From Ancrocorticia sp. (lineage in GTDB: Bacteria > Actinomycetota > Actinomycetes > Actinomycetales > Actinomycetaceae), in NCBI GenBank assembly GCA_022648165.1, contig JALCLX010000002.1, positions 247,706-311,705 on the forward strand: a stretch of DNA of 64,000 nt. Direction: 5' to 3'. A program made the translations under genes and the position numbers. Under the pieces are notes generated by a model. The model ran no database searches. It was not told where the DNA came from and saw nothing but the letters and a program-made list of their open reading frames with translations. Shown here piece after piece: positions 44,168 to 62,099 of this stretch (within the stretch, counting starts at the first letter, position 1; each line of letters begins with the position of its first letter).

Positions 44168-45172
44168 TTAACCGGCCACGAACTCTACGGAGGCTGCGCC
44201 GTCGTCAACTCTTCTGGCTGCGCCGTCGTCAACTCGTCCATCTACGCCGTGGTTAGCCCTACCGAAACGCTCCTTCATCACCGTGATCGCCTCCGGATTC
44301 GAATCGATCAGAAGGAAGCGGCGGCCAAGTTCTACCGCTGCCGCGCCGGTAGTGCCAGAGCCCGCGAAGAAGTCGAGCACCCAGTCACCAGGGCGCGAAC
44401 TCGCCTCAATGATGCGCCGGAGGATCCCAATTGGCTTTTGAGTAGGATACCCCGTTTTTTCCTTGCCAGTTGGGGAAACGATTGTATGCCACCACACGTC
44501 CGTGGGCAGCTTACCGCGGGCAGCTTTTTCTGGCGTCACGAGGCCAGGGGCCATATAGGGTTCGCGGTCAACGCCTTCGCTGTTGAAGTAGTAGTGCAGC
44601 GGATCTTTAACGTACACCAGAATCGTGTCATGCTTGGCCGGCCACCGCCGCTTGGCGCGAGCGCCATAATCGTAGGCCCAGATAATCTCATTGAGGAAGC
44701 ACTCACGGCCAAAGAGCGCATCCAATGCGACCTTCGCATAATGCGACTCCCGATAATCTAGATGTACGTATAGCGTGCCTGAAGGTGCCAGCAATCGCCA
44801 CGCCTGCTCCAAACGCGGCTCCAAAAAATCCCAATAATCACCAAAAGAATCGTCATAACTGAGCAAGCGGCCTTTCACTTGCTCATAACTCTGCCCTTTG
44901 AAACCCACGCGTGTACCATTTTTTGACCGAGTAATGCGCATCGTCTGGCGGCCCTGCACGCGGCCCGTATTAAACGGCGGATCGATGTAGATCAACTGAA
45001 ATTGGGCATCCGGCAATTTCCGCAAAAGGGGCAGATTATCACCCAAGATCACAGTGTTGGGTGAATCAGGGCTCCACACAGTATCCTTCGATGCCCCAGG
45101 GCCTCGGCTCGCGGAAGTATAGGGTTGAATCACACCTCTTAGGCTATCAAGCCACGTCTTCCCGGATATCAC
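44168..45172 (-). CDS. Site-specific DNA methyltransferase (beta-class, N6-adenine/N4-cytosine type), orphan
   Basis: IYIDPPFNTG then FFAGSGTTGAAAVELGRRFLLIDSN; alternative GTG start at 45133. Confidence 0.9.
   Translation of the reverse strand: MISGKTWLDSLRGVIQPYTSASRGPGASKDTVWSPDSPNTVILGDNLPLLRKLPDAQFQLIYIDPPFNTGRVQGRQTMRITRSKNGTRVGFKGQSYEQVKGRLLSYDDSFGDYWDFLEPRLEQAWRLLAPSGTLYVHLDYRESHYAKVALDALFGRECFLNEIIWAYDYGARAKRRWPAKHDTILVYVKDPLHYYFNSEGVDREPYMAPGLVTPEKAARGKLPTDVWWHTIVSPTGKEKTGYPTQKPIGILRRIIEASSRPGDWVLDFFAGSGTTGAAAVELGRRFLLIDSNPEAITVMKERFGRANHGVDGRVDDGAARRVDDGAASVEFVAG
44192..44239. repeat. 24-bp tandem repeat x2 (plus degenerate third) at 3' end of methyltransferase gene
   Basis: GGCTGCGCCGTCGTCAACTCTTCT / GGCTGCGCCGTCGTCAACTCGTCC. 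Confidence 0.8.
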
Positions 45173-45893
45173 GCTGCGTTCCTCGCTGATCAGCGTTTGC
45201 CTGTGCGATCAGTGCATCAATCGCCTTTGCGCTGTGGTGAGATAACCGAAGGCCTGGTCGCGAAACTTTCACCAATAGCATCAAAACAAAGTCCACAAGC
45301 AGCGCCGTGGCCGTCACCATAATTGCACCCGCAGCTACTTCTCCGTATTTGTAGACGGCCAGACCGTCAAAGATATACCGCCCTAATCCACCCAAATTGA
45401 CATACGCGGCGATCGTAGCTGTTGCTATGACATCCAGAAATGCCGTCCGAAATCCTGAGAGAATGAGCGGGCGGGCATTCGGAAGCTCCACACGAAAGAG
45501 AACCTGCGGCTCAGACATACCCATCGCTCGTGCGCCATCAACGGCAAGAGCATCGACATTGCAAACGCCCGCATAAGTGCCGGCCATCAATGGGGGAATC
45601 CCCAGTATGACGAGAGCCAGCACCGGAGGCAGCAAGCCCAAACCCATCACCAGAACTAAGAAAGTCATGATGCCGAGGCTGGGAAGTGAGCGGACACCGT
45701 TTGCGAGGCCCACTACAAAAGTTTCGCCACGATGTGTGTGCCCGATCATCATTCCAATCGGTACGGCTATTACAGTGGCAATTGCAACGGCTAGTGCCGA
45801 ATAATAAAGATGCTCTACGATTCGGACCGGGATGCCTTCGGGCCCGCTCCAGTTCGTTGGATCAGAAAGAAACGTCACAAGGTCCGCAAACAT
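45147..45893 (-). CDS. OpuC/ProW-type ABC transporter permease
   Basis: Osmoprotectant-type permease: NGVRSLPSLGIMTFLVLVMGLG...GVCNVDALAVDGARAMGMSEPQVLFRVELPNARPLILSGFRTA. Confidence 0.88.
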   Translation of the reverse strand: MFADLVTFLSDPTNWSGPEGIPVRIVEHLYYSALAVAIATVIAVPIGMMIGHTHRGETFVVGLANGVRSLPSLGIMTFLVLVMGLGLLPPVLALVILGIPPLMAGTYAGVCNVDALAVDGARAMGMSEPQVLFRVELPNARPLILSGFRTAFLDVIATATIAAYVNLGGLGRYIFDGLAVYKYGEVAAGAIMVTATALLVDFVLMLLVKVSRPGLRLSHHSAKAIDALIAQANADQRGTQRDIREDVA

Positions 45894-46634
45894 CTATGCC
45901 TCCAAATTCACCAGGTCGGACACGGCGTCCGCTGCGTTCGCGGCAGGTTCTGCTGCCTCGGAAGGCCGCGCACCGGAGCCTTGCGAGGAGCGCCATGGAG
46001 TCAATGCACGCCCCAAGACTGCAATGATGCGATCAGCAATTGCGGCAAGTATGACGGTGAGGATGATCCCGGTCATGATCTCTTCGGGGAAGTTGCGCTG
46101 GTAACCAGAGGTAAACAGTTGCCCCAACCCTCCGATTCCGATCACAGCTCCCACTGAGACCAGCGAAACGTTGGTAACGACGACGACGCGCACACCTGCG
46201 GTAAGCACCGGAATGACCAGCGGTAGATCGATACGAAGTTTGCGCTGGAGCCTCGAAAAGCCGATCGCCGTTCCAGCGTCGAGCACATCGGCGGGCACAT
46301 TGTCGAGCGATTGGAATACGGAGCGCAGCAGAAGGCACGTAGAGTACAACGACAACGCCACTACTACATTGACGGGTGAAAGTATCTGAGTTCCGATGAT
46401 ACCTGGTATCAACAGAAACAACGCGAGTGATGGAATGGTGTAAATCGCACTCACTACCACCGTAACAACGCTTCGCACTTTCGGTGAATCGTACAGCAAT
46501 AAACCCAGCGGAACCGCAATCGCGAGCCCTACTATGGTAGGAACCACCGCAAGCCAAATATGCTGCACCAGAAGCTCTGAGACGCTACTCCAGTTCTGTA
46601 TGGCCCACAGACCAGGAAGCGAAATGCGCATCAT
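45894..46634 (-). CDS. OpuC/ProW-type ABC transporter permease
   Basis: VVSAIYTIPSLALFLLI...IGFSRLQRKLRIDLPLVIPVLTAGVRVVVV. Confidence 0.88.
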   Translation of the reverse strand: MMRISLPGLWAIQNWSSVSELLVQHIWLAVVPTIVGLAIAVPLGLLLYDSPKVRSVVTVVVSAIYTIPSLALFLLIPGIIGTQILSPVNVVVALSLYSTCLLLRSVFQSLDNVPADVLDAGTAIGFSRLQRKLRIDLPLVIPVLTAGVRVVVVTNVSLVSVGAVIGIGGLGQLFTSGYQRNFPEEIMTGIILTVILAAIADRIIAVLGRALTPWRSSQGSGARPSEAAEPAANAADAVSDLVNLEA

Positions 46635-47725
46635 CGGGAACGCTCCGCTTCTACAACATCAATCACGTGCGCAATACTTACCACACCCGTAACTGTTCCT
46701 GAGGCATCTGTCACCACTCCTTGGCCGCATGGTGATGATAGCGCCGAATCGAGCGCCTGCCGCAGCGTTCCATCAGGAGTGAGCTCGGAGCCGACAGGTG
46801 CGAGAACTCTGTGCGCGCGGATGCCAGAACGGAGCGCGATATGGCGTTCTTTATCCAACCAACCAAGAGGCTTACCTTCCGTATCTGTAACGAGCAACCA
46901 GGATTCAGTAGGCGATTGCGTTCGTGCATCCTCAAGCGTGGCAGTTGTTACTGGCTCCACCGCCAAGCGCTCTATCGTGTGGAACGAAAGAGCGCGGTAT
47001 CCGCGATCATGACCAACCAAGTCCGCCACAAAATCGTTTGCCGGATTCGCAAGCACATCCGCTGGTGTTCCATATTGCTGCAGCACACCACCTGTGCCGA
47101 ATACTGCAACTTTGTCACCCAAGAGCACGGCCTCGTCCATATCGTGTGTCACGAAAATAATGGTTTTGTGAAGCTCCGATTGAAGACGGCGCAGTTCCCG
47201 CTGCAGATCACGGCGGACAACCGGATCCACCGCAGAGAAGGGTTCATCCATGAGTAACACTTCAGGATCTGCTGCGAGTGCCCGCGCGACGCCAACGCGT
47301 TGTTGCTGACCCCCTGAGAGACTGGTTGGGTATCTTTTCGCGAGGTCGAGACTGAGCCCAACGCGCTTCATCACGTCAAGCGCCTTCTTGCGCGCTTCTT
47401 TTTTCGATTCACCTCGCAGTAACAGCACAGTTGCGACATTGTCGACAACGGTGCGATGCGGGAGCAACCCTGCGTTCTGAATAACGTATCCAATACCGCG
47501 CCTGAGCTGAACAGGGGATATGGACTTGACATCGGCGCCGTCCACCACGATACGGCCCTCGGTGGGTTCCAACATACGATTCACCATGCGCATGGACGTC
47601 GTTTTGCCGCAGCCGGATGGGCCAACGAACACTGTGAGCGATCCCTTGTCAATCACCAAATTGAGGTGGTCAACCGCGATCGTTCCGTCGGGGAACTGCT
47701 TGGTGACATTATCAAACTCAATCAT
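46631..47725 (-). CDS. OpuCA/ProV-type ABC ATPase with CBS domains
   Basis: GPSGCGKTTSMRMVNRMLEPTEGRI, LSGGQQQRVGVARALA; start MIEFDNVTKQ chosen. Confidence 0.9.
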   Translation of the reverse strand: MIEFDNVTKQFPDGTIAVDHLNLVIDKGSLTVFVGPSGCGKTTSMRMVNRMLEPTEGRIVVDGADVKSISPVQLRRGIGYVIQNAGLLPHRTVVDNVATVLLLRGESKKEARKKALDVMKRVGLSLDLAKRYPTSLSGGQQQRVGVARALAADPEVLLMDEPFSAVDPVVRRDLQRELRRLQSELHKTIIFVTHDMDEAVLLGDKVAVFGTGGVLQQYGTPADVLANPANDFVADLVGHDRGYRALSFHTIERLAVEPVTTATLEDARTQSPTESWLLVTDTEGKPLGWLDKERHIALRSGIRAHRVLAPVGSELTPDGTLRQALDSALSSPCGQGVVTDASGTVTGVVSIAHVIDVVEAERSR

Positions 47726-47834
47726 CGGATGCTCCTTTGTGACGCCCAGTGAGTGGCAATTTCCCACTCGCCTCAGGCCAGCATTGTTGGAGGTGGTGTG
47801 GAGCCCCGATCCGGAGGGCTCCACACCACTCGTC

Positions 47835-48773
47835 TTAGTTATTAATCAGCCCCTTATCTTCGAGCCATTGCTCCGCAGCAGCTTTGGGCTCCATCTTGGC
47901 GTCGCCACTCACTTCAGCGTTGATGGAAAGAAGATCATCGGTGGTGAGCTCCGCGGACACCTTATTGAGAACCTCCAAGGCAGCGCTATCGACGGCGCCT
48001 TCGCGGAATATAGGAACCACGTTTTGTGCTGGGAAATTATTCTTCGGGTCTTCGAGTACGACGAAATTGTTCGCCGGAATATCGGGACTTGTTGTGTAGA
48101 TATTTGCGGCTTTTACCGTGCCATCGACAAGGGCAGCTACCGTGGCCGGCCCGCCGCCGTCTGCGATCGCGACGTAGTTAGAGGGCACCACGCCATAGTT
48201 CGCTTTGAGCCCTGGGAGTCCCACTGCGCGTTCTTTGAATTCTGGCGTTCCGCCGAACGTGAGTTCGTCGTTATGGGCGGCCAAATCGCCAATTTCCTTG
48301 AGATTCCACTCTTTGGCCGTTTGTTCTGTGACCACGATTGAATCCTTGTCCTCGGCCGGTGCCGGCGTGCCCATAGCGAGGCCTTTCGCCTTGAGCGCAG
48401 CTGGCAATGCGGCATCGACATCGTCTGCAGCCGTCGCGGTAGCAGAACTGTCAAGGTAGGAAAGGAGGTTCCCGGTGTAGTCAGGAATTAGGTCGATCGA
48501 TGAGTCTTCAAGCGCTGGGATATAGACCTCGCGGGAACCAATATTGAACTTCTCTTTGACGTCGTAACCCGCATCCCGCAACGCAATAGCGTAGATGTTA
48601 GCGAGGATCTCGGATTCGGTAAAGTTAGCCGATCCCACCGTGATTGTCGACGACGAATCAGAGGAACCGGAAGTCTGGTCGCTACCGGATACACCGGGTG
48701 AGGAGCATGCTGAAAGAGCTACGGATGTGATAGCGATAGTAGCCACCGCAGCGAAGGGTCGAAAGCGTCGCAT
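47835..48773 (-). CDS. OpuCC/OpuAC-type substrate-binding lipoprotein
   Basis: Lipobox SACSSPG; ITVGSANFTESEILANIYAIALRDAGYDV...IPDYTGNLLSYL. Confidence 0.9.
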   Translation of the reverse strand: MRRFRPFAAVATIAITSVALSACSSPGVSGSDQTSGSSDSSSTITVGSANFTESEILANIYAIALRDAGYDVKEKFNIGSREVYIPALEDSSIDLIPDYTGNLLSYLDSSATATAADDVDAALPAALKAKGLAMGTPAPAEDKDSIVVTEQTAKEWNLKEIGDLAAHNDELTFGGTPEFKERAVGLPGLKANYGVVPSNYVAIADGGGPATVAALVDGTVKAANIYTTSPDIPANNFVVLEDPKNNFPAQNVVPIFREGAVDSAALEVLNKVSAELTTDDLLSINAEVSGDAKMEPKAAAEQWLEDKGLINN

Positions 48774-49009
48774 TTTATGTCTCCAAAGACTCGATGATGT
48801 GGGACTTATGTTCTCAACGGGGTGATTCTGTCGTTTCTACCCGTCTTGCGGCTCATGCTAATCACGTGACCTCTGCCCGCTATAACTCCTTCCCGCGCCA
48901 TGAGAATGCTCGCCCCGTGATATGAAGAACGTGTTTTCGGAATGTTTCCAACGCTTAACGACGCCCATGCACACGGGCCGTTGCGCACCCTGGTAGGCGC
49001 CAGATATAA

Positions 49010-49043
49010 CGAGATATGGGGCCCCAAAGAGCCCCATATCTCG
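49010..49043 (-). terminator. Stem-loop between ubiD-end operon and OpuC operon
   Basis: CGAGATATGGGGC-N8-GCCCCATATCTCG, perfect 13-bp stem. Confidence 0.7.
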
Positions 49044-49067
49044 CATCGCCGCTATACATATTCTTTA

Positions 49068-50462
49068 TCACACTGCGCGAAAACGAATTCCTTCCATCAG
49101 CTGCGAAGGCGCCGCCACCACACCGGCGCGGCGCAGTATGCTGGCCGCGTTGACCAGTGCCTCATCGGACGATCGCGCGAACGCCCAGCCCTCGGCCCTG
49201 TCGCCCGCCTTGACAGTAGCATCAACACCCAATTTCCCAACCGTCAGTGTTGCAACCAACGGATCTGAACGGTCGGTACGTGCATGCGGAACCACCAAGT
49301 AATCCCTTTCCGGGCGCGCATGGCACAAGCGAGCCCATTCAACGGATGCCGTGTTCCACGGATCCACTTCAGCATCGACAACAATTACCTGTTTGATCAG
49401 TGAGACATGGGAAAAACACGCCATCATCGCCTGCTGCGGAACCCCAGGGCCAGCATTCTTTATTGATACGATAGCGCTTGTTCGACCGGCTCCAACATCA
49501 GGCACCGCAACGTCCACCACGCCCGGGATAAGTTGTTGCAAAGTCGCCTTGAGGCTAGCTGCGATCGATAGCGCGCCAAGAAGGATATGCTCCTGGTGCA
49601 GGCTAGGCAGTATCACCTGGAAATACGGGTTCTGGCGCCGCCTCATGTGTTTGAATTCTACGACGTAGCCCTCCCCGTAATCGTGGTAGCGTCCATGAAA
49701 TTCGGACACCAGGCCTTCTCTCACCTTTTGTTCAGGGTGAACTACGCCCTCAAGAACCAGCTCCGCATCAGCGGGAACGCGAATACCCGAGTCTGTTTCC
49801 ACGACGTCCACGGGCGCCCCCAGGAGCGCCCCGGCGGAGGCCAATTCGTCGTCGCCGAACTTCATATAGAGGCAGGCCGCCAAACTGATGGCAGGATGTA
49901 CTCCGATCGCGACGGCGATAGGCAATGTGCTTCCCCTGGCAAGGGCGCGCTCCGCCATCTTGCCCAGATGATGGTTGGGGGAAACTCCTAACATCGCGTG
50001 GTTAGCGTCTAGAACCTTGAAGCGCGCGAAGGAAAGATTACGCTGTCCAGTCTCCACATCGCGCACTGCGATGACACCCGCCGTAATATACGGGCCGGTC
50101 TCACGCGGAAAGAAGGTCGGTATCGGCAAGCGCGTCAAATCCGCCGCTTCTCGCACGTCGCAACACGGCCCGCTCGATACCACATTCGGTTCAATCGGGC
50201 TGCCGATCGATGCCGTGAGAACCTCTGAGACGCTTTGCTCGCTAACCCCTAACGCCAATGCTGCCCGCTGCCTGCTGGTCACCACATTTCCTACAACGGG
50301 CATCGCGTGATCGCCCACATGGCGTGCGATCACTGCTGGGCCGGCCTCCAACAGCGCCAGCACTGCGCCCAAATCAGCCTCTGGACACACCTGTTCGTCG
50401 ATGGTGACCAGTTCTCCGCGATCGGCCAACACCCGCAAGTAATCTCGCAGCGACGCGCTCAT
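49068..50462 (-). CDS. UbiD-family decarboxylase
   Basis: UbiD-like GRYHDYGEGYVVEFKHMRRRQNPYFQVILPSLHQEHILLG; ubiX present at 56871. Confidence 0.88.
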   Translation of the reverse strand: MSASLRDYLRVLADRGELVTIDEQVCPEADLGAVLALLEAGPAVIARHVGDHAMPVVGNVVTSRQRAALALGVSEQSVSEVLTASIGSPIEPNVVSSGPCCDVREAADLTRLPIPTFFPRETGPYITAGVIAVRDVETGQRNLSFARFKVLDANHAMLGVSPNHHLGKMAERALARGSTLPIAVAIGVHPAISLAACLYMKFGDDELASAGALLGAPVDVVETDSGIRVPADAELVLEGVVHPEQKVREGLVSEFHGRYHDYGEGYVVEFKHMRRRQNPYFQVILPSLHQEHILLGALSIAASLKATLQQLIPGVVDVAVPDVGAGRTSAIVSIKNAGPGVPQQAMMACFSHVSLIKQVIVVDAEVDPWNTASVEWARLCHARPERDYLVVPHARTDRSDPLVATLTVGKLGVDATVKAGDRAEGWAFARSSDEALVNAASILRRAGVVAAPSQLMEGIRFRAV

Positions 50463-51730
50463 CGTGGGTTTTCCGTGCTGTCAAGCCGCGCGAGCGCTGC
50501 TCCCAGAACGTGTACTCCCTGGGAGATATCGCTGATATCGGTGAACTCCTCCGGCACATGGCTTCGCCCGCCTTGAGAAGGAACGAAGATCATTCCCATG
50601 GGTGCGATAGACGCGATGTGTGCCGCGTCATGTCCCGCTCCGCTTGGGACGGCCTCCCATGAAAGCCCTATAGCATCAGCGGCTTGCGCAATCTGGTCTT
50701 GAACCAGCTTTGTGGCCTGAACAGGAGCCTGATCGGAGAGCCACTCCACCATCGTATGGACGCCTCTCTTATCAGCCTCCTCCGCTATTTCTTGCGCAAT
50801 GCGCATTTTGACTTCGCCCAGCCATGCCGGATCGATGCTACGCAGCTCGGCCCATATCTTCGCATCGTCTGGAACGATATTGAATGCGCCTGGCGACGAT
50901 TCAATGCGGCCGGTAGTAGACACGCCGTGGATTGGTGCACCACAGGCTTCGCGCTCGATTGTCAGAATCGCGCTAGCGGCAGCCAATAACGCATCCTGCC
51001 GTCCGTCCATAGGCGTGGTGCCTGCGTGATCGGGCCTGCCGTGAAATTGCGCCATCAGCCGGTCAATCCCCGCGATGGCGGTGACGACGCCAATTGACGT
51101 GCCACGCCTTTCTAGGAGTGGCCCCTGCTCGATGTGGAGTTCGACATACGAATGGATCGATCCCGGCTTCCACGCCTGGCTGATGGCCTGATTCGGGTTT
51201 AATCCGAAGGCCGTCATCACATCGCCGAGTTTGTTCCCCTCATGGTCGGTGCGATCCAGGTGTTCGGGTTTGAGCACGCCGGCAATGGACCGGGATCCGA
51301 TGCAGGATATGCCATACGGGTTAGCCTCTTCTCCCAGGAAATCGACGACGACGAGGTCGCGCTCGAACTGCAGCCCCGCCTCCCGCAGGGTTCGCGCCAG
51401 TTCAATCGAACCGAGTACACCAACCATTCCATCAAAACGCCCGCCACCGTGAACAGTATCCGTGTGGGATCCCGTCATCAGCACGGGAAGGCTGGGGTTA
51501 CGCCCTGGTAGAACACCAACGATATTGCCCGCCGCATCAATGTGCGTCTCTAATCCGGCCTCATCCATGTGATGGCGCGTCCATTGCCGGGAAGCGCGGT
51601 ACGGATCGGAAAACACCTGCCGGGTCCAGCCTGGTGCAACAGAATCCGTATATTCCGCGAGCGCCTTGAGATCGGCTGCCAGTCTCTCCGCGTTGGGACG
51701 TAGCGATTCCGCGGTAATCTCGGCCATCAT
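50459..51730 (-). CDS. M20-family Zn-dependent hydrolase (N-carbamoyl-amino-acid hydrolase / allantoate amidohydrolase type)
   Basis: LMTGSHTDTVHGGGRFDGMVGVLGSIEL; HIEQGPLLE; ATGA overlap with ubiD-like gene. Confidence 0.88.
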   Translation of the reverse strand: MMAEITAESLRPNAERLAADLKALAEYTDSVAPGWTRQVFSDPYRASRQWTRHHMDEAGLETHIDAAGNIVGVLPGRNPSLPVLMTGSHTDTVHGGGRFDGMVGVLGSIELARTLREAGLQFERDLVVVDFLGEEANPYGISCIGSRSIAGVLKPEHLDRTDHEGNKLGDVMTAFGLNPNQAISQAWKPGSIHSYVELHIEQGPLLERRGTSIGVVTAIAGIDRLMAQFHGRPDHAGTTPMDGRQDALLAAASAILTIEREACGAPIHGVSTTGRIESSPGAFNIVPDDAKIWAELRSIDPAWLGEVKMRIAQEIAEEADKRGVHTMVEWLSDQAPVQATKLVQDQIAQAADAIGLSWEAVPSGAGHDAAHIASIAPMGMIFVPSQGGRSHVPEEFTDISDISQGVHVLGAALARLDSTENPR

Positions 51731-52827
51731 GCCACCGCCGCGACGCGTTCGGGCGTGTAGGGAAGCAGGTCGATTCCCATGATCTGCTCGCATTCCGCTA
51801 TCCCCACGGGATCCACAGCCGAGAAGGATAGTGGAAGCGTAACCGCCGGAACGTAGATGAGAACCACGTCCATTCCTTCGTGCGCATCCTTGACTGCGAG
51901 TGCCTCGCCTGTATCCGTTCGCATGATAGCGATCGTGTCCGGATAGGTTGCTACGCGCCCATCGGGCCCATCGATAGCCATGAATTCATTCAAATAAGGC
52001 ACGGTGTATTGGCCTACTCCGAACGCGCCATGATCCCAGCCTCCCTTGGTGACCAGCGGCTCGGTGAACGTCAGCGGACCACGATCCACCACGGTCGCGC
52101 CAAGCTTTTCAACGACGGCCGCAATCACATCCTCAGCCCGCTCCGACGATCCGTATCCGGCTTCTTCCATGACCTCGCCCAGATCGAGCGCAAGACTAAT
52201 AGAACCGAGTGCCGCATTTTCCTTCACCCATTGCAGCTCTACAGGATTCCGTGCCGCCGCGATGAAACCTCCCGTGCGGACCGAAATGTCGCGCAAAACA
52301 TCGTCGCAGGTGGTAACCGTTCCACGGTTGATGGAAAGGAACTCACCGTGAAGCGCACGATTTCCGCCTGACAATACCTGGGTAGCGATATAATCCGGGC
52401 GCGTCGTCAAGCCCATTGCCCCCATCTTGCCGGTGGGATGGGCCCGAATATCTCCGGCGGCGTCAAGCACAGGGATGCCAAGAGAAGCAGATTGAATCCA
52501 GCCATTGTGCGTTGTGGAATAGCCGTTCTGGGCAGTCATAACAGCAGCTATGGGAACGTCCACGGCATCAATCAAGGCCCGCAGCGCGTTGACATAGTCA
52601 ATGGGTTGGATCTCCCACGTGGGCGACGCTGGCGCACCGATCGCTGTTACCGTGGCAACCCAGCTGTCGCCGGGAAGTTCATCCACAGATGCGAGCGTTG
52701 GGTAGCCGATCGAGGTGGCCAGCGCGCCCATGAGTTCGCCATGATGCTTCCAGCCGCCTCCTCCGCATGCGAAGACTCCTCCGCCCAAGACTCCGTGCCG
52801 TGCATCGTCTGCAGTGAGTGTACGCAT
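51727..52827 (-). CDS. DUF917 / S-methyl-thiohydantoin desulfurase-family protein
   Basis: GGGVFACGGGGWKHHGELM... DUF917 N-terminal pattern; overlaps the M20 gene start. Confidence 0.82.
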   Translation of the reverse strand: MRTLTADDARHGVLGGGVFACGGGGWKHHGELMGALATSIGYPTLASVDELPGDSWVATVTAIGAPASPTWEIQPIDYVNALRALIDAVDVPIAAVMTAQNGYSTTHNGWIQSASLGIPVLDAAGDIRAHPTGKMGAMGLTTRPDYIATQVLSGGNRALHGEFLSINRGTVTTCDDVLRDISVRTGGFIAAARNPVELQWVKENAALGSISLALDLGEVMEEAGYGSSERAEDVIAAVVEKLGATVVDRGPLTFTEPLVTKGGWDHGAFGVGQYTVPYLNEFMAIDGPDGRVATYPDTIAIMRTDTGEALAVKDAHEGMDVVLIYVPAVTLPLSFSAVDPVGIAECEQIMGIDLLPYTPERVAAVA

Positions 52828-52837
52828 AGTGATCCTC

Positions 52838-54568
52838 TCATTCCTCTACGTTGATTTGTTTGAGCGGCGCATTTCCTGTCTCGCCGCCGACGGCGACCGA
52901 GTGCCGCGCCTCTTCGTAACCTGCAGTTGCGTAACGGAGTACGCCAAGTCCGGTGTCCAGATCCAACACTTGGCAGATTCTCTGTTCTGCTTCTGTACTG
53001 CCGTCGGCAACCACTGAAACACCCGCCGACTGCATCCAACCTGAGTAACCGCCACCACCGGAATGAACGGCAACCAAATCAGCCCCAGATGCGCTCAACA
53101 ACATGGAGTCCAAAATGGGCCAATCGGTCACGCCGTCCGATCCGTCCTTCATTGCTTCAGTCCCTATCCTCGGGTGAGTCATCCCCGCAGAATCAAGGTG
53201 ATCGCGGCTGAAGAGGATTGGCGCACTAATGTGGCCGCTAGCTACCAGGCGATTTGTTTCCCGTGCGATCAGCGACCGCTCTCAGTGGCCAAGCCAGCAG
53301 GATCGGGCAGGAAGGCCTTGCGTGGGAATATGGCGGCGTGCCAACTCGATCCATTCCGCCACCTCTGGCCGCTTGGAGAACAATGTGGCAGCAAGCTGAT
53401 CCACCTGTTCCAGATCTCTCTCATCCCCCGAAAGAGCAATCCACCGGAAGGGGCCAATGCCTCGACTGAACAACGGCCGTAAGTATTCCGGCATAAAACC
53501 GGGGATTCGATAGACTCGTTCAGCCTGGTCATGGCCCAAATATTCCAAAGCCTGCACCCGCAGATTGTTTCCGTTTTCAAACACGATCGCGCCAGCTTCT
53601 TGGAAGGCCAGCATCGCTTCGACCTGCACGGCCATACTCGCTTTCGCGCGATCCTCCAACTCTTGAGGATGTGCTTCGCGATACGCAGCCCAATCCTCTA
53701 ACGCGATTCCCGACGGCAAATATCCGTATCGGGCATCGTGGGCCGCCGTCTGGTCTGTGACAATAGTAGGGACGATCCCGCGGCGGCGTATCTCTGGGAA
53801 TACGTCCGCAGCGTTTCCTTTGAGACCCACCGCCACAGTGCGGCCGTCCTGTGCAGCGCTCATCACCGTGGCCAACGCCTCATCCAGATCGTCTGTCATG
53901 CGATCGATTCCACCGGCGGCGTGAAGCTTGTGGAGCTTTGCAGGATCGACCTCTACCGTAAGCGAGGAAAGGCCCAGCATGGCTGCGCTGATGGGCTGCG
54001 ACGATCCCATTCCACCCAATCCTGCCGTCAGCATCCAGCGATGGGCCATCGCCTCATGGTTCGCTCCCCCACAATGCCGCATGCCGATAGTGCGCAGTAG
54101 CTCGTATGTGCCACAAAGGACGCCTTGGCGCCCAATGTATTGCCACGCTGCAGCTGTAAGGCCACCCCAGATTGTGTCACCACTAGCGAGGCGCGCATAG
54201 AAGCGCTCGGGAGTTGCCCACACCCCCACAGTGTTATTCACTGCTGAAATCACCATCGGGGCATTCCTTCCTGTCTGCATTACTCCGATTGCGGCACCCG
54301 TTTGCAACACCAGAGTCTGTTCTTCTTCCAGTTCAAGGAGCGCACGTACTATCGCTTTTGCCTGGTCCCAGTTGCGGGCGGCCTTGCCAAGCGACGCATA
54401 GATCACCAGCGCAACAGGGTCCTCTCCTACCTCCAAGACGTTCTCAAACATCCGAAGCAGCGCTTCCGCCCGCCAATTTTTCGCGCGCAGCTCGCTCCCG
54501 CGGGCTGCGCGGACGCTTGCCGTTGGCCCGGCTAGAATGTCTGAAACCGGTGTGCTCTTCTCAATCAT
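52838..54568 (-). pseudogene. Urocanase-family hydratase interrupted by an in-frame TGA (53282-53284)
   Basis: N-part 53282-54568 ends QGLPARSCWLGH*; same frame continues ERSLIARETNRLVASGHISAPILFSRDHLDSAGMTHPRIGTEAMKDGSDGVTDWPILDSMLLSASGADLVAVHSGGGGYSG; distance between the two ORF ends is 444 nt = 148 codons. Confidence 0.88.
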
Positions 54569-55325
54569 TAGTTCCTGACCACGCTTCCTCCATCACCGCG
54601 ATGGGCATATGTTCCACAAGCTGTGTTGTGAAACTCTTCAATGTAGCGACGATGATTTCTTGACGGGTGAGCGACTGCATCTCGCCGATCAACGAGATAG
54701 CGCACATGCACCTTCCCCCTACAATCACGGGAACGCCAAAACCGGCCATGCCTGGCGTCAGATAGCCCTCCGAAACCACATAGCCTTCTCTACGCGTTCG
54801 TTCCACAGCGCGTACGATTCCCTCTCGGTCCGGCGTCGCTGATGTAAAACGTTTCAAATCGCCGTCCAAAATCTCTCGCAACACCGGTTCTGGCGCGTAG
54901 GCCAACAAGGGCAGTGCGCTTGCACCTGCATACAGAGCGCGTACTTCGCCTGGTTGAAATGAGATCCTGTGTTTTGGATGCGCAGCTACCGAATCCAGGC
55001 ACAGCGCCGCAACATGCACTCGCACGGTGAGAACCGATGTCATCTGAGTCGCCGCACTGAGCTTGCGCAATGCAGGCGCCGCGTAACGTACCAGATGCGT
55101 CGCAGAATTGTCCGGCTCGGCAAGCTTCTGACTTGGCATCACATGCCCATCAACCTCAATAAGGTATCCAGTCGCTTTCAAAGTCTTTAAGTAGCGATAC
55201 ACAGTGGACAAGGGAAGGCTCAGTCCGTCAGCAACCTCTTGCGGCCGCATACGTGCATTGTGCTGCACAATCTCCAGTATCTCGAGCCCGCGGATCAGTG
55301 ATCCTAAGCCTTCGCCTCGCACCAT
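54561..55325 (-). CDS. IclR-family transcriptional regulator
   Basis: RGLEILEIVQHNARMRPQEVADGLSLPLSTVYRYLKTLKATGYLIE HTH; IclR effector domain. Confidence 0.92.
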   Translation of the reverse strand: MVRGEGLGSLIRGLEILEIVQHNARMRPQEVADGLSLPLSTVYRYLKTLKATGYLIEVDGHVMPSQKLAEPDNSATHLVRYAAPALRKLSAATQMTSVLTVRVHVAALCLDSVAAHPKHRISFQPGEVRALYAGASALPLLAYAPEPVLREILDGDLKRFTSATPDREGIVRAVERTRREGYVVSEGYLTPGMAGFGVPVIVGGRCMCAISLIGEMQSLTRQEIIVATLKSFTTQLVEHMPIAVMEEAWSGTND

Positions 55326-55335
55326 CGTGTACCCC

Positions 55336-56715
55336 TTACTTGACTTCGTCGCGCGTGAGAATCTCTCCTCGTCCCAGCGTCACATTGAGTCCATCGGCGG
55401 CCGAATAAATCAGCGTGCCGCGCGAAAAGACATGTGTCACAGCTCCGCCCGGTCTCAGCCCGTCGTACGGGCTCCATCCGGCGTTCGAATGCTGTGCAGA
55501 CCCGTCAATCGCCTGATCGCCGGGTTGGAAGACCATGATGTCCGCATCTTTACCCACGCCCAGCGAGCCCTTGCGGCTGCTTAGTCCGAAGCGCCGCGCG
55601 GGCGTGATAGTGATTGCGTCAAGTGCAGCGTTGAACAGGGACAATGAGGGATCTCGCTGTAACGCCTGGCCAAGAACCAACGTCGGCAGAGTTTCAACGC
55701 CTGGAACTCCTGAGGCATTCTCCAGAATGTACTTCTTCGTCTTCATCTCAAGCGGCCACGGGGCATGATCGGATGAGACGATATCGATCTGGCCGGCTCT
55801 GAGTTCATTCCACAAGCCTTCTACGGCGTCCTTTGGGCGCAAGGGAGGATTGATCTTCAGCCTGGCACGCTGCTTCATCATGTCGTCCTCGCTGAATGTC
55901 AGATAATGTGGGCACGTTTCCAGCGAGGCGTTCGTTCCCTGCCCCTTGTACCATGAAACCAGCTCCGCTCCACGCGGCAGCGAAAGATGGCACAGATGAA
56001 GCCGAACCCCGGTATATGCTGCTTCTTCTAGTGCCACTACCACGCCAAGCGTCTCGGATACTGGTGGGCGAGTGCGCAGATGAACACGCGGATCTGTATC
56101 GTGAGGATCTTGCTGGTCGCTGAGGCCGTGGACTATCTCGTTGTTCTCAGCGTGAATACACAACGTCCCGCCAGCGTCTTTGACAGCGTTCATGACGTTG
56201 AGTAGTTCCAGATCGTTGATGCGCGGGAAACGATGCGGATCTGTCAAATACAACGAAACCTTGTATCCCACAGCGCCGGCTGCTGACATCGCTTCGGCCT
56301 CGCGCCACCCGCCATCTGGCGCAAGCGTTCCAAGAATCGCCACATCTACGGCAGCCTCGTTGGCGACCATATCCTGTTTTGCGTGAAGGCGGTCCAGTGT
56401 ATTGATGGGATCAGGAACGTCGAACGGCATTTCCACAACCGTTGTAACGCCGCCGGCAGCAGCGGACCGCGTTGCCGCTGCCACGCCCTCACCGCCATAC
56501 GAAAGGCTGTGAACATGAGAGTCGATCGCGCCCGGGAGAACGAAGGCGTCGCCAACATCAAGCCGAGACACCCCCGGCGTCTTGCTCGGATCAACACCAG
56601 GGAAGACCGCCGAAATGCTCTCACCAGTCACCCACACTTCGCCGCGAATCCATGAATCCTCAACCCGAACGCGGCCGGCGATGACCTGATCGGGGAGTTT
56701 CTGTTGCTCGTTCAT
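55336..56715 (-). CDS. Hydantoinase / allantoinase / dihydroorotase-like cyclic amidohydrolase
   Basis: VLPGAIDSHVHSLSYGG, GYKVSLY, SSDHAPWP; start MNEQQKLPDQ chosen. Confidence 0.88.
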   Translation of the reverse strand: MNEQQKLPDQVIAGRVRVEDSWIRGEVWVTGESISAVFPGVDPSKTPGVSRLDVGDAFVLPGAIDSHVHSLSYGGEGVAAATRSAAAGGVTTVVEMPFDVPDPINTLDRLHAKQDMVANEAAVDVAILGTLAPDGGWREAEAMSAAGAVGYKVSLYLTDPHRFPRINDLELLNVMNAVKDAGGTLCIHAENNEIVHGLSDQQDPHDTDPRVHLRTRPPVSETLGVVVALEEAAYTGVRLHLCHLSLPRGAELVSWYKGQGTNASLETCPHYLTFSEDDMMKQRARLKINPPLRPKDAVEGLWNELRAGQIDIVSSDHAPWPLEMKTKKYILENASGVPGVETLPTLVLGQALQRDPSLSLFNAALDAITITPARRFGLSSRKGSLGVGKDADIMVFQPGDQAIDGSAQHSNAGWSPYDGLRPGGAVTHVFSRGTLIYSAADGLNVTLGRGEILTRDEVK

Positions 56716-56792
56716 GCGGCGAATATAGGCCGCATCCTCACAACACAGACAAGCCATCCTCACACCATGGGAATTTGCCAGACCAATTTGAC

Positions 56793-56819
56793 GCGCAGAA
56801 CACCGCCATGTTTCTGCGC
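56793..56819. promoter_or_regulatory. Candidate operator in divergent promoter region
   Basis: GCGCAGAA-N11-TTCTGCGC inverted repeat between amidohydrolase and ubiX starts. Confidence 0.4.
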
Positions 56820-56870
56820 TGTTACAGCACGTGCGCTGCACTTGTCGGATTCCATTGAAGGTGCAACCAT

Positions 56871-57515
56871 GTGGGAATGGCCAGAGTAATTGTTGCAATC
56901 AGCGGCGCGTCAGGTGCGGCGGTGGCAGTCGACGTACTACACCTCCTCAAAGAGCGCGCCGTAGAAGTTCATCTCATAGTGAGCCACTGGGGCGCCATCA
57001 CCCTGGAACACGAAACAGGGATGCGCACGCGAGACCTACAACCTTTGGTGCACACGATCCACAGCAACAAGAATATGGCATCTGCGTTGGCCAGCGGTTC
57101 GTATCCTGTTGATGCCATGGCGATCGTTCCGTGCAGTGCACGGACACTGGGGGCGATAGCACAAGGCACAGACCCTTCGCTACTAGGCCGAGCAGCCGAC
57201 GTCTGCCTCAAAGAACGCCGAAAATTGGTGTGCGCGCTGCGAGAGACGCCCCTTTCCGCGATACACCTGGCGAATGCTCTCGCCGTCACTAACGCGGGTG
57301 GAATCGTGGCGCCGCTGGTCCCCACTTTCTACGCGAATCCTCACAGCGTAAGCGACATCGTGCACGACATGGCGTCCCGCATCGTCGAATCACTTGGTTT
57401 TCGCGTAGAAAGCTCCCCTCATTGGGGTGAAAACACCGGGCTTGAGATCCACCGTTCAGATGCACCGGCACTTTCAGAATCTAGTTCGGACAACATACAC
57501 GCTCTCAACAACTGA
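56871..57515 (+). CDS. ubiX: UbiX-family flavin prenyltransferase
   Basis: RVIVAISGASGAAVAVDVLHLL; VPCSARTLGAIAQG; RRKLVCALRETPLSAIHLAN. Confidence 0.92.
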   Translation: MGMARVIVAISGASGAAVAVDVLHLLKERAVEVHLIVSHWGAITLEHETGMRTRDLQPLVHTIHSNKNMASALASGSYPVDAMAIVPCSARTLGAIAQGTDPSLLGRAADVCLKERRKLVCALRETPLSAIHLANALAVTNAGGIVAPLVPTFYANPHSVSDIVHDMASRIVESLGFRVESSPHWGENTGLEIHRSDAPALSESSSDNIHALNN

Positions 57516-57629
57516 GAAACCTCCAAGTAACACGGACGGCGCAAGATTCTTGCGTGGTGGGAACGAGATAGCGCCCGTGCTAGCGCCGGGGCTATCGTCC
57601 TCATGACTTGAGAACGAGAGGAGCACAGC

Positions 57630-58843
57630 GTGCCCAGCGAATCGGCGCAATTGCTCAATGGGATCATAGTACTCGACTTCACCCGAATGCTGGCCGGCCC
57701 CTACTGCACGGCACTACTGAGTGACCTGGGCGCCACTATCATCAAGGTGGAACCTCCTCACGGTGATGACCAGCGCCACATAGGGGCACTCGAAGGCGAT
57801 TACAGTTTTAGCTTCGAAGTGCTCAACCGGAACAAACGATCCATCACGATCAACCTTAAAAACCCCGAAGGAGTGAAACTGGCGCAGACACTCGCTGCGC
57901 ACGCCGATGTCGTCGTCGAAAATTACCGTCCCGGAGTGTCCAATCGGCTGGGAATCGGGTACGAAACGCTCCGCCGTCTCAATCCGCGAATTGTCGTAGC
58001 CTCCATTTCCGGATTCGGTCAAGACGGACCGATGGCGCAGGCCCCCAGTTATGACGTGATCGCCCAGGCACTCTCTGGCCTCATGAGCATCACGGGTACG
58101 CCCGAAGGAGAATCGAGCTTGGTGGGTGAGTCGATTGCCGACGTCGCCGCCGGGATATTTGCTGCTTTCGCCATCGGGATGGCTCTCTACAGCAGGGAGA
58201 AGACCGGGTATGGCCAGCATATTGACGTGGCTCTGTTTGACAGCCTGTTCAGTATGCTGCCCACCGCACTGGCACAGTGGCAACTCACGGGAAAAGCTCC
58301 GAACGCATCGGCAATTCCCACGCATTCTCCGCTCCCTTTGGCGCCTTTCGAGCGCGCGATGGGCTGTTCACGATAGCCGTTGCGAATAACAAACTCTTTG
58401 CTGCGCTGGCACAGGCACTTGGAATGCCCGAGTTACCGGAAATGCCGGAATTCGCAAACGATGCGCTGCGCCACCAACACCAAGCCAAACTGACGCAGAT
58501 CGTCGAAAACTGGGCCGCAACACGCAGCGCGGCCGAAGTCGCACAAGAACTGAGCACCGCCGGCGTGCCAGCGTCCACAGTGTGGAACGTGGACCAGGCC
58601 GCGCGCAGCTCCCAGGTCCGCGCGCGCGAACTTCTTGCACGCGTGCCCCACCCCGGATTGGGATCGGTTTTCCTTCCGCAACAACCGGTGCACTTCAGCG
58701 ATGCGCCGCGACACGTCGCCCGGCCGGCGCCTGAGCTCGGCAGCGATACTGAAGCGGTCCTGGCAGGCATGCTTCACCTGAGTCCGGATGAGATCACGCG
58801 TCTGTTCGAAGAGGGAGCCATCATCGCAAAGGAGAACACATGA
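57630..58843 (+). pseudogene. CaiB/BaiF (class III) CoA-transferase with 1-nt frameshift near 58301
   Basis: N-part 57630-58376 (MLAGPYCTALLSDLGATIIKVEPPHGDD...), C-part continues in the frame of ORF 58277-58843; adding one G (CCGAA to CCGGAA) restores GKAPERIGNSHAFSAPFGAFRARDG. Confidence 0.87.
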
Positions 58844-59655
58844 ACGTTCCCGTGTATATCGTAACCGGGTCTTCACGTGGAATCGGCGCGGCCACCGCAA
58901 AGCGCCTCGCAGCTCGCGGTGCGCGCGTGCTGATCAACTACTCAACCGATCGCGCCGCAGCCGAATCCACCGCATCCGCCTGCGAGAGACTGGGAGGCGA
59001 GACGCGAATTGTCCAAGGCGACATCGGTGACGATGCAGCATGCCGCGCGTTGGCGCGAGTGGCACTAGAATCCTGGGGCCGCATCGATGGGCTCGTCAAC
59101 AATGCGGCAACGACTTCGCGTGTCAACTTCTTCGATCTTGATGGCCTCACACTTGAAGAATTTGTGCGCGTTCTTTCCACGAATGTGGTAGGAACCTTTT
59201 CGATGACTAGGGCTGCCCTTCCAGCGTTGCGCGAATCCTCAGGAAGCGTAGTGAACGTCTCATCCGATGTCGCATTCACGGGCGCAGGAAGCTCGCTGCC
59301 CTACAACGCTTCCAAAGGGGCCATCAACGCAATGACGAAGGCACTCGCGCGCGCCGGAGCTCCGAATGTGCGGGTCAACGCCGTATGCCCGGGCGTCGTC
59401 GCCACCAACTGGATGGCGCATGCCCTGGGCGAAAACTCCTTTGAGCAGTTCAGAGAAGAGACGATATCCCGCACACCGTTGCAAAAGATCGCAACGCCAG
59501 ACGACATCGCAGCGGCTATCGTGTGGCTGCTCGATGCACCGATGGTTACAGGCGAACTAGTGCCAATCGACGGCGGAGTGCGGTTGCTGCCTATACCCAC
59601 CACGACGCCGCCACCCGCCAACGGCCCGGGGACGCCGTCGGAAGAGACGAAATGA
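58840..59655 (+). CDS. SDR-family oxidoreductase (FabG-like)
   Basis: VTGSSRGIGAATAKRLA; YNASKGAINAMTKALA. Confidence 0.92.
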   Translation: MNVPVYIVTGSSRGIGAATAKRLAARGARVLINYSTDRAAAESTASACERLGGETRIVQGDIGDDAACRALARVALESWGRIDGLVNNAATTSRVNFFDLDGLTLEEFVRVLSTNVVGTFSMTRAALPALRESSGSVVNVSSDVAFTGAGSSLPYNASKGAINAMTKALARAGAPNVRVNAVCPGVVATNWMAHALGENSFEQFREETISRTPLQKIATPDDIAAAIVWLLDAPMVTGELVPIDGGVRLLPIPTTTPPPANGPGTPSEETK

Positions 59656-59703: not shown

Positions 59704-60543
59704 ATGAGACTCACACCCGAAGCGCTGCTTCAATACGCTATCCCTGACGTCAACGCGACCATTAATCCTAACGCAGCAGCGCTATACGCTCTCTCCGTCG
59801 GATACGGATCCGACGCTGTGATACCAGAAGAGCTGCCATACGTCGCGCTCGCCGCCACACCGCAGAAGGTAGCACCGACGATGGCGAACACTATCGCTCA
59901 CCCAGGGCACTGGCTCGCACGCGCCGGCGCACAGTGGGAAGGGGTAGTTCACGCAGAGCAACGCCTGACGGTATACCACGCGATCCCATTGGGCGCCAAG
60001 TTAATCTCTCACACACGTGTTCTTTCCGTGACGGATCGCGGAGCATCCGGGCTTTTCGTGAGCTTCCAAAGCGATATTAGTACGACCGATGGTGCACTGA
60101 TTGCCACGCGGATCCAGACTGATGCGTGCAGATTCGACGGAGGGATCGGATCAGCAGGAATGCCTCCACCCACGCTGACTCTTCCGCCCGATCGGCCTGC
60201 AGACACCGAATTACACGTTGAGCTCCCCGCTAACGCGGCATTGCTCTATCAACTCAATGGTGACGACAATGCGCTCCACACCATACCGGCAGCCGCGCAA
60301 CGGGTCGGATACGATACGCCCATCTTGCACGGCTTATGCACAATCGGCTGGGTGGCACATGCGATAGAACGCCACACACAGCAAGAATTACGCGGATTCG
60401 AAGGCCGTTTCACGTCCACGATCCATCCCGGAGCGACCGCACGCATCCAGCTGTGGGCTACGCCCACGGCTGTTGCCTTCCGCGTGTACGGTCCAGACAC
60501 ATCACGGCCAGTCATTGACCGTGGAAAGGTTCTGCTCTCATGA
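59704..60543 (+). CDS. MaoC/hot-dog-fold acyl-thioester dehydratase-like protein
   Basis: Two-domain hydratase-like sequence with DTPILHGLCTIGWVAHAI. Confidence 0.7.
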   Translation: MRLTPEALLQYAIPDVNATINPNAAALYALSVGYGSDAVIPEELPYVALAATPQKVAPTMANTIAHPGHWLARAGAQWEGVVHAEQRLTVYHAIPLGAKLISHTRVLSVTDRGASGLFVSFQSDISTTDGALIATRIQTDACRFDGGIGSAGMPPPTLTLPPDRPADTELHVELPANAALLYQLNGDDNALHTIPAAAQRVGYDTPILHGLCTIGWVAHAIERHTQQELRGFEGRFTSTIHPGATARIQLWATPTAVAFRVYGPDTSRPVIDRGKVLLS

Positions 60544-62099
60544 CTACATCCACGAATGCCGGGCAAGGCGCCACGCGCCGCGCAGCTTCTCCACGCGCGA
60601 CGCGCGCGAACGCCGCCGTCGAACTTGGCATTGCACCACTTACCAGTGCGGACATATCCGCCATCGCTCACGGCGCCCGCGTGACCATCGCGCCGCATGC
60701 CGCAGAACGCATCCGCCAGGCGCGCGCCCTAGTCCAAAAAGCGTTGCATGGACGTGCAGCAATATACGGGCTCAACACGGGCTTAGGGGCGAACGTTGAT
60801 ACTCCGCTCACGTCAGAGCAACTTGTGTCATTCCAGGTGAGCGTCACACGAAGCCACCGCGCTGCTGTAGGCCCTAATTTGGACACCCTGCACGTCCGCG
60901 CGATCATGGCGACCAGACTGGCAGAAATCGCACACGGCGGCGCCGGGGTGTCTCCTGCGGTGGCTCAGGCAATCGCAAACGCGCTCAACGCTGGCTTTCA
61001 TCCCGTTGTGCCCGCGCTCGGATCAGTGGGAGCCGCCGATCTTTCCCCTCTAGCTCAGATCGCAAACGCGCTGATCGGAGAAGGAGAAGCCGAGTTCCAC
61101 GGAACGGTGATGCCGGCAGCGCAAGCACTTAAGGCCGCAGGCCTTGTGCCGATGCCTATTGCAGAAAAGGACGGCCACTCGTTCGTTGTAGCAAACAGCT
61201 ACTCGGTTGGTAGCGCGTGCCTCAGCTTGCGCCAGCTCCGCGCCGCCTTCGAATGGTCCCTCAAAGCGGTAGCCCTAAATTACGAGGCCTTCCTGTGCAA
61301 CTTGCGCATACTAGATCAAGACGCACTCGCCGCACGGCCAGCCTTTGGGCAAGTAGAAGTGGGCGCTGAGCTCAGGAAGCTGATGGAGGGCAGCAGACTG
61401 TGGGACTACTCCCGCGCGCGCCGGCTGCAAGATCCGCTCAGCTATCGGTGTGTGCCCCAGATCTGGGGTGCACTCCATCACGCCATCAATGAAGCAGATC
61501 TCATCACGGATATCGAGCTTTCCCACCCCACAGAGAATCCCGTCATTACAGAAGGCGGCCGCATCATTCCCACTGCGAACTTCGATCTCACAGCCTTCGC
61601 CCAATCGTGGGAACGACTTGACCTGGCACTCTCCAATTGTGCAAGCGCCACCACGTATCGCATCTCCAAAATCATGTCTCACGGCCTCACCGACCTGCCA
61701 CGATTCCTTACACTCCATGCGGGAAACGCCGGATTTGGGCAGATTCAGCGGAGCGCGTCTGCACTCGATGCAGAAATCCGGCACCTCGCACTTCCCGTGT
61801 CGTTCGATCCCATCGCCGTTTCCGATGCCATCGAAGATGAGGCATCGATGGCGCCCCGCGTGATCGCAAAAACAGATGAGATAGTGGAACGGTGGTGGAT
61901 ACTCATCGCGATTGAGCTGATAAGTTCTGCACAAGCCGTTGATCTGCGTGGAGCCAAGGCAGCACTTGGCACAGGTGCACGTGAGGCGTATGAATTCGTG
62001 CGTACATACTCCGTTTTTCTCGATGAAGATCGCGCGCTCGGCCCCGAAGTGACGTCCATCGCCCAGGCGATGCGAAGCAGAGCGGTACCATCGGTGTAG
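60540..62099 (+). CDS. HAL/PAL-superfamily lyase lacking MIO Ala-Ser-Gly triad (ergothionase-like candidate)
   Basis: YGLNTGLGANV, TRSHRAAVGP, LQDPLSYRCVPQIWGA, IEDEASM retained; MIO region reads GSVGAADLSPLA instead of GSVGASGDLAPLA. Confidence 0.85.
   Translation: MTTSTNAGQGATRRAASPRATRANAAVELGIAPLTSADISAIAHGARVTIAPHAAERIRQARALVQKALHGRAAIYGLNTGLGANVDTPLTSEQLVSFQVSVTRSHRAAVGPNLDTLHVRAIMATRLAEIAHGGAGVSPAVAQAIANALNAGFHPVVPALGSVGAADLSPLAQIANALIGEGEAEFHGTVMPAAQALKAAGLVPMPIAEKDGHSFVVANSYSVGSACLSLRQLRAAFEWSLKAVALNYEAFLCNLRILDQDALAARPAFGQVEVGAELRKLMEGSRLWDYSRARRLQDPLSYRCVPQIWGALHHAINEADLITDIELSHPTENPVITEGGRIIPTANFDLTAFAQSWERLDLALSNCASATTYRISKIMSHGLTDLPRFLTLHAGNAGFGQIQRSASALDAEIRHLALPVSFDPIAVSDAIEDEASMAPRVIAKTDEIVERWWILIAIELISSAQAVDLRGAKAALGTGAREAYEFVRTYSVFLDEDRALGPEVTSIAQAMRSRAVPSV

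Follow-up and report, generated by a model that had tools for sequence, protein, structure and literature searches.

A UbiD-family decarboxylase gene in an ergothioneine-type gene island of Ancrocorticia sp. belongs to a clade whose members, across dozens of unrelated bacteria, are neighbours of the same genes for ergothioneine breakdown, and which therefore probably marks an undescribed side entrance to the pathway. The window, by which is meant the whole stretch of 64,000 nucleotides analysed here (contig JALCLX010000002.1), encodes the UbiD protein of the HmfF/AnInD branch at 49068..50462 on the minus strand (464 amino acids) and a UbiX flavin prenyltransferase at 56871..57515 on the plus strand. 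The explanation that we tentatively favour is that UbiD serves as a prenyl-FMN (prFMN)-dependent decarboxylase of an imidazole-type (heteroaromatic) acid, providing a second entry to the ergothioneine/hydantoin trunk.

The UbiD gene is intact and the coordinates of its open reading frame agree exactly with those first predicted. Both proteins exceed the cut-offs of their profiles (TIGR00148, 269 bits against 244.85, for UbiD; TIGR00421, 199 bits against 108.9, for UbiX), and UbiD matches the three Pfam UbiD domains PF20695, PF01977 and PF20696. A search of the 2.18 Mb genome gave no second UbiD and no second UbiX scoring above cut-off; a UbiD of the ubiquinone/menaquinone type was ruled out because the genome's only UbiD is placed in the Ert operon. 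The ATG of UbiD overlaps the TGA of ErtE (ACGATGAGC), which argues for one operon comprising ErtD, an IclR regulator, a urocanase-type hydratase, DUF917, ErtE and UbiD. As the original prediction had it, and as the positions of the open reading frames confirm, UbiD closes this minus arm, with the gene of a betaine-type ABC binding protein starting 294 bp beyond, and UbiX opens the plus arm, across a gap of about 155 bp if ErtD starts, as is most likely, near 56715. Shared regulation of the two arms across the divergent promoter, also predicted, is plausible from this layout and from the IclR-type regulator in the minus arm, but we can only infer it, since a promoter scan of 48600-57700 returned no sigma-70-like promoter. 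The assignment of the UbiD/UbiX pair to the ergothioneine-type island is supported.

The nearest relative of the window UbiD by both sequence and fold is HmfF, a furan-2,5-dicarboxylate decarboxylase (6h6v) of the same UbiD branch that is about 33% identical over nearly the whole length and is the best PDB match of an AlphaFold2 model with a pLDDT of 90.3. The next-best distinct enzyme in sequence and fold is the indole-3-carboxylate decarboxylase AnInD (7p9q; PMC8988006), which also acts on a heteroaromatic acid but is 28% identical; the identity of Fdc1 is about 22%. HmfF and Fdc have been placed in different UbiD branches, although the branch does not fix the substrate (PMC7976604; PMC8988006), and the related HudA does not accept imidazole-2-carboxylate (PMC7976604). 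The Glu-Arg-Glu network of HmfF (catalytic residues R147, E249 and E254 in the window) and the His of its 'EH' motif (H292, aligned with HmfF H296) are kept in 72 of 72 members of the window clade. The clade differs from HmfF in having Ile, likewise in 72 of 72, at the position of R304 (I300, a clade-specific residue where control UbiDs have R or T), and in sitting with Ert genes, not with furan catabolism. We take H296 and R304 of HmfF to have a role in substrate handling. From these sequence features the window UbiD may be a working prFMN-dependent decarboxylase that draws its cofactor from the island's own UbiX, a prediction held as tentatively as the favoured explanation of which it is a part. 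The original prediction was that the acrylate which a HAL-type lyase forms, such as (thio)urocanate or a related compound, is directly decarboxylated by UbiD to a vinyl-imidazole-type product. Acrylates are the classical substrates of UbiD enzymes of the Fdc type, which speaks for such a reaction, but the window UbiD does not fall within the Fdc branch, HmfF and AnInD being closer by sequence and fold, and these nearest relatives decarboxylate ring carboxylates.

For every step of the known Ert clusters (trimethylamine lyase, thiourocanate hydratase, thiohydantoin desulfurase, ErtD and ErtE) the window has a homologue, to which it adds UbiD/UbiX and a CoA-transferase/SDR/MaoC set. On the minus strand, only the ErtE-type N-carbamoyl-glutamate amidohydrolase of the M20 family (50459..51793, with a true start probably nearer 51730) passes its equivalog cut-off (NF058540, 547 bits against 520). 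The DUF917 protein that resembles thiohydantoin desulfurase (51727..52827; NF058529, 339 bits, cut-off 440), the urocanase that resembles thiourocanate hydratase (52838..54568; NF058530, 708 bits in a read-through frame containing one stop, cut-off 930) and the ErtD-type hydantoin-5-propionate amidohydrolase (55336..56715; NF058538, 389 bits, cut-off 600) fall below theirs, yet the Ert families are their best matches, and the island is probably a divergent ergothioneine-like betaine island. The ErtD frame is open from 56898 and its profile match starts about 69 residues in. The IclR-family regulator (54561..55325; PF01614 and PF09339 over cut-off) lies between ErtD and the hydratase. An idea that a carbamoyltransferase of the DUF1116/DUF2877 kind is encoded here proved wrong, the open reading frames in question being two parts of the one urocanase frame. 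Beyond UbiD, also on the minus strand, an OpuC-type betaine ABC importer with two permeases, an ATPase and a binding protein (45147..48773; PF04069, 183 bits) is possibly part of the system; its binding protein is about equally like choline/betaine-type proteins and EgtUC (approximately 73-90 bits).

The plus arm consists, in order, of UbiX, a class III CoA-transferase (57630..58843), an SDR oxidoreductase (58840..59655; PF13561) that would be hydroxyacyl-CoA-dehydrogenase-like and whose operon is kept in loci L051, L052 and L144, a MaoC/hotdog hydratase (59704..60543; PF01575) and a HAL-superfamily lyase (60540..62099; PF00221, 417 bits); the window stops at the contig end, which bounds the view past this arm. 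The lyase is without the MIO tripeptide, as predicted, and has the motif GSVGAADL where MIO enzymes have GSVGASGDL. Its best PDB match is the ergothionase of Treponema denticola (6s7j), which also has no MIO (PMC13405746) but differs in its GEGDI motif, the window-type lyase having GAADL. Judged by sequence, the window lyase probably releases trimethylamine from an amino-acid betaine, and hypaphorine and other aromatic betaines have been considered as its substrates. It forms a group of its own with the lyases of L051, L052, L100, L108, L116 and L144, and its combination with the CoA-transferase/SDR/MaoC set recurs in Paracoccus aminophilus (L051) and Rhizobium (L052 and L144), where UbiD is not beside it. 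On the Rhizobium plasmids (L052 9839-17468 and L144 6890-14485) the set and a lyase 54-55% identical to that of the window are accompanied by a hutC-like regulator and betaine ABC genes, a putative sulfate exporter adjoins, and no Ert genes are nearby; a CoA-dependent route for a sulfur-containing betaine is possible there.

Two genes of the island are interrupted: an in-frame TGA at 53282-53284 breaks the hydratase, and a frameshift near 58290-58310 splits the CoA-transferase into frames 57630-58376 and 58277-58843, which match PF02515 consecutively and are 61% and 49% identical to a CoA-transferase of Paracoccus aminophilus. Selenocysteine or other recoding at the TGA was dropped as unlikely because five homologues have G, M or T at this position; the stop probably reflects decay or a sequencing error. 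The stop and the frameshift together may indicate that the island is decaying in this strain, which lends something to the rather improbable view that UbiD and UbiX are here passengers of a decaying, horizontally acquired island, with no present role whatever they do elsewhere; that the island lyase is missing from all three congeners searched, and that the island sits at a contig end, would fit as well. However, either lesion could be a sequencing or assembly error, the genes of UbiD, UbiX, ErtD, DUF917, ErtE, SDR, MaoC and the lyase are all open, and every catalytic residue of UbiD is kept. UbiD/UbiX in related strains without the rest of the island, the occurrence against which the original prediction had been set, was not encountered in the three congeners: two have no UbiD, and the third has only a 30% identical UbiD with no Ert genes near. 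HAL and urocanase genes of other members of the family were rejected as representing the same island (31-34% and 43-46% identical, respectively, with no UbiD alongside).

The association of UbiD with Ert genes extends well beyond the window. A scan of approximately 85,000 genomes with the single UbiD sequence returned no matches, and the query had to be an alignment that joined the window UbiD to homologues from plasmids (38-48% identical), with which 78 loci were returned from 85,462 genomes. At least one of ErtD and ErtE lies within 10 kb of the clade UbiD in 60 of 74 loci, and both do in 55 of 74, compared with none of 14 other actinobacterial UbiDs (28-37% identity) taken as controls (Fisher p 6e-9 and 1e-7, respectively, values that overstate the case because the loci are related to one another). 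Independent of these p values is the spread over phyla: the hosts are mostly Alphaproteobacteria, but also include Pandoraea, Nakamurella, Chloroflexota, Synergistales, Spirochaetaceae, Trueperaceae, Paenibacillus and Thalassobacillus, and ErtD or ErtE is present in 40 of 49 genus-level groups, several of the remainder being short contigs. The clade UbiD adjoins ErtE in 11 loci and thiourocanate hydratase in nine, and in L087 the hydratase, desulfurase, ErtD and ErtE all pass the NCBIfam equivalog cut-offs. A HAL-superfamily lyase is near the clade UbiD in 25 of the 74 loci; what stays constant around UbiD is ErtD and ErtE rather than the lyase. The predicted co-conservation thus holds for the ergothioneine/hydantoin genes and often for HAL-superfamily lyases, but not for the MIO-less lyase as such, any form of which is missing from ten genomes that have UbiD and the full trunk.

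Three arrangements of these genes were distinguished. In the first, UbiD is accompanied by the hydratase, DUF917, ErtD and ErtE, with no lyase within 10 kb (L055, L073, L077, L081, L082, L084, L086, L087, L103, L107, L114 and L130), and L084 and L087 have a five-gene operon, ErtD-ErtE-DUF917-hydratase-UbiD. In the second, UbiD is found with ErtD/ErtE and a HAL-superfamily lyase of the MIO type, the window type or a divergent MIO-less type, and the hydratase and DUF917 are not nearby (for example L080, L088, L105, L106, L116 and L118). In the third, in Devosia, Martelella and Agrobacterium vitis, UbiD-UbiX is joined by ErtD and ErtE, a protein of the ICL/PEP-mutase family and an ABC importer of the peptide type. 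The ICL/PEP-mutase-family gene (L053 18728-19660, with homologues 85-100% identical in Devosia, Martelella and Rhizobium) has a fixed position between UbiX, the peptide-type ABC genes and ErtD/ErtE. The trunk differs between genomes, as in 20 genomes of the second and third arrangements and L100, L108 and L111 a thiohydantoin desulfurase over cut-off is present in five and missing from 15, and four show no urocanase, some of these genomes being MAGs. Next to Ert clusters, a CoA-transferase and one or two acyl-CoA-dehydrogenase-like genes were seen in L082, L103, L107, L130 and L135, possibly serving (thio)imidazole-propionate.

The HAL-superfamily lyases near UbiD are diverse. A very divergent MIO-less branch with the motif GQGGAG-EI and variants recurs alongside the clade UbiD (L056 10043-11491, L089 11355-12842, L096 5653-7173, L112 11932-13389, L119 9878-11341 and L127 6989-8518), and HAL-type open reading frames of L098 (6824-9973) and L105 (6068-8680) have a long N-terminal stretch, of about 380 residues in L105, with no Pfam match. 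In Komagataeibacter (L100 5635-7377) an ergothionase-like lyase with the GEGD motif is near a UbiD-UbiX-lyase series whose lyase is of the window type, and a TonB-dependent receptor adjoins. The lyase is directly beside UbiD in L080, L088, L089, L098, L105, L106, L108, L115, L118 and L119.

Nine Ert clusters (L135-L143), taken from plasmid records only and retrieved with the hydratase of L087 or the DUF917 protein of the window as query, have no clade UbiD nearby, and seven of these records, searched whole, have no UbiD above 35% identity. The canonical Ert route therefore does not need UbiD, which bears out the premise that the known ergothioneine/hydantoin routes require no decarboxylase. 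Six of the nine clusters have a lyase within the stretch, in all six cases without MIO, and ten genomes of the first UbiD-bearing arrangement, searched with PF00221, a model that picks up MIO-less lyases at scores of at least 271 bits, have only MIO-motif lyases (nine genomes) or no lyase (one). Full Ert clusters thus tend to have either UbiD or the MIO-less lyase; the window, which has both, is an exception. The two may conceivably be alternative doors to one pathway; jointly with this, and just as doubtfully, the clade UbiD over several phyla would be the entry enzyme for undescribed imidazole acids with an extra carboxylate, replacing ergothioneine. The importers fit an acid taken up from outside in clusters without lyase, some of which have TRAP (L055, L079, L095, L103 and L107) or TctABC (L111) systems, and a lyase product where, as in the window, L113 and L118, a betaine importer accompanies a MIO-less lyase.

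The identity of ErtD bears on which carboxylate UbiD might remove. In proteobacterial loci, with or without UbiD, most ErtDs share 60-80% identity with the L087 protein, and ErtDs from UbiD-bearing and UbiD-free clusters interleave in the tree; outlying ErtDs (Pandoraea, Burkholderia, Chloroflexota, Paenibacillus and others) are 31-44% identical. Since the same orthologue occurs with and without UbiD, the side chain seems to retain its carboxylate. Provided that hydantoin-5-propionate is the substrate of ErtD in every case, the carboxylate of the acrylate or propionate is still present when ErtD acts, and UbiD should then remove another carboxylate or act beside the trunk. On this argument an imidazole-type ring carboxylate is preferred, with modest confidence, over the acrylate of a lyase, the decarboxylation of which we consider unlikely. 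The acrylate reaction would suit the loci in which UbiD and a lyase are adjacent without CoA-transferase/MaoC (L080, L088, L089, L105, L106, L108, L118, L119 and L100), above all L080, where ErtE, UbiD, HAL and ErtD are consecutive, but it leaves UbiD with no MIO-less lyase in the ten full-trunk genomes and its vinyl product with no evident further use.

In the favoured explanation, with a ring carboxylate as the target, UbiX would supply prFMN to UbiD, UbiD would strip CO2 from the imidazole-type acid, and the decarboxylated compound would enter the trunk upstream of ErtD, passing through the hydratase, the DUF917 desulfurase, ErtD and ErtE to glutamate. UbiD would thus open another way in, or a side branch, next to the betaine lyase and outside the known ergothioneine route. 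One candidate substrate in the window is an imidazole(-2-thione)-4-carboxylate, to which the CoA-transferase, MaoC hydratase and SDR enzyme would chain-shorten the lyase product; this version would be special to the window because most clusters are without the CoA-transferase/SDR/MaoC set, and elsewhere the acid may be taken up from outside. Against this explanation, UbiD and a lyase are adjacent in several loci and the window has both; the variable trunk, the scores of the window ErtD, DUF917 and hydratase below their cut-offs, the sampling of UbiD-free loci from plasmid records only and the loose tie between UbiD branch and substrate also weigh against it. We know of no natural imidazole acid with a fitting extra ring carboxylate.

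ErtD and ErtE as constant partners of UbiD could also be accounted for if the trio worked as in the anaerobic xanthinase pathway, which is cited in PMC12507026 and is reported (Tong et al. 2023) to use hydrolases together with a prFMN decarboxylase. The likeness would lie in the kinds of enzyme (cyclic-amide hydrolase, carbamoyl hydrolase and UbiD): the amidohydrolase would open a fused pyrimidinedione, the carbamoyl hydrolase would take the ureido group, and UbiD would decarboxylate a heteroaryl carboxylate. A xanthine-dehydrogenase-type large subunit does adjoin the trio in L093; however, ErtD and ErtE of L053 and L087 pass the equivalog cut-offs for ergothioneine enzymes, and the window differs from the xanthinase pathway in having Ert-type hydrolases, a lyase and hydratase- and desulfurase-type genes, with no evident candidate for an aminoimidazole deaminase or imidazolonase, all of which makes this explanation very improbable.

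The breakdown of ergothioneine, the UbiD and UbiX families and ergothionase have been described before; the co-conserved accessory decarboxylase appears to be new. No link of UbiD to hydantoinase, ergothioneine or urocanate was found in the open literature searched. The island looks capable of breaking down ergothioneine, an antioxidant of mushrooms. A cluster of urocanase, DUF917, ErtD and ErtE should not always be taken to degrade ergothioneine, given the ten UbiD-bearing genomes without a MIO-less lyase. If the favoured explanation is true, the ergothioneine/hydantoin trunk would be a hub that can be entered in more than one way, the UbiD family would gain a new class of substrate, and an overlooked branch of prFMN decarboxylases would point to an unnamed nutrient used by bacteria of soil, plants and hosts.
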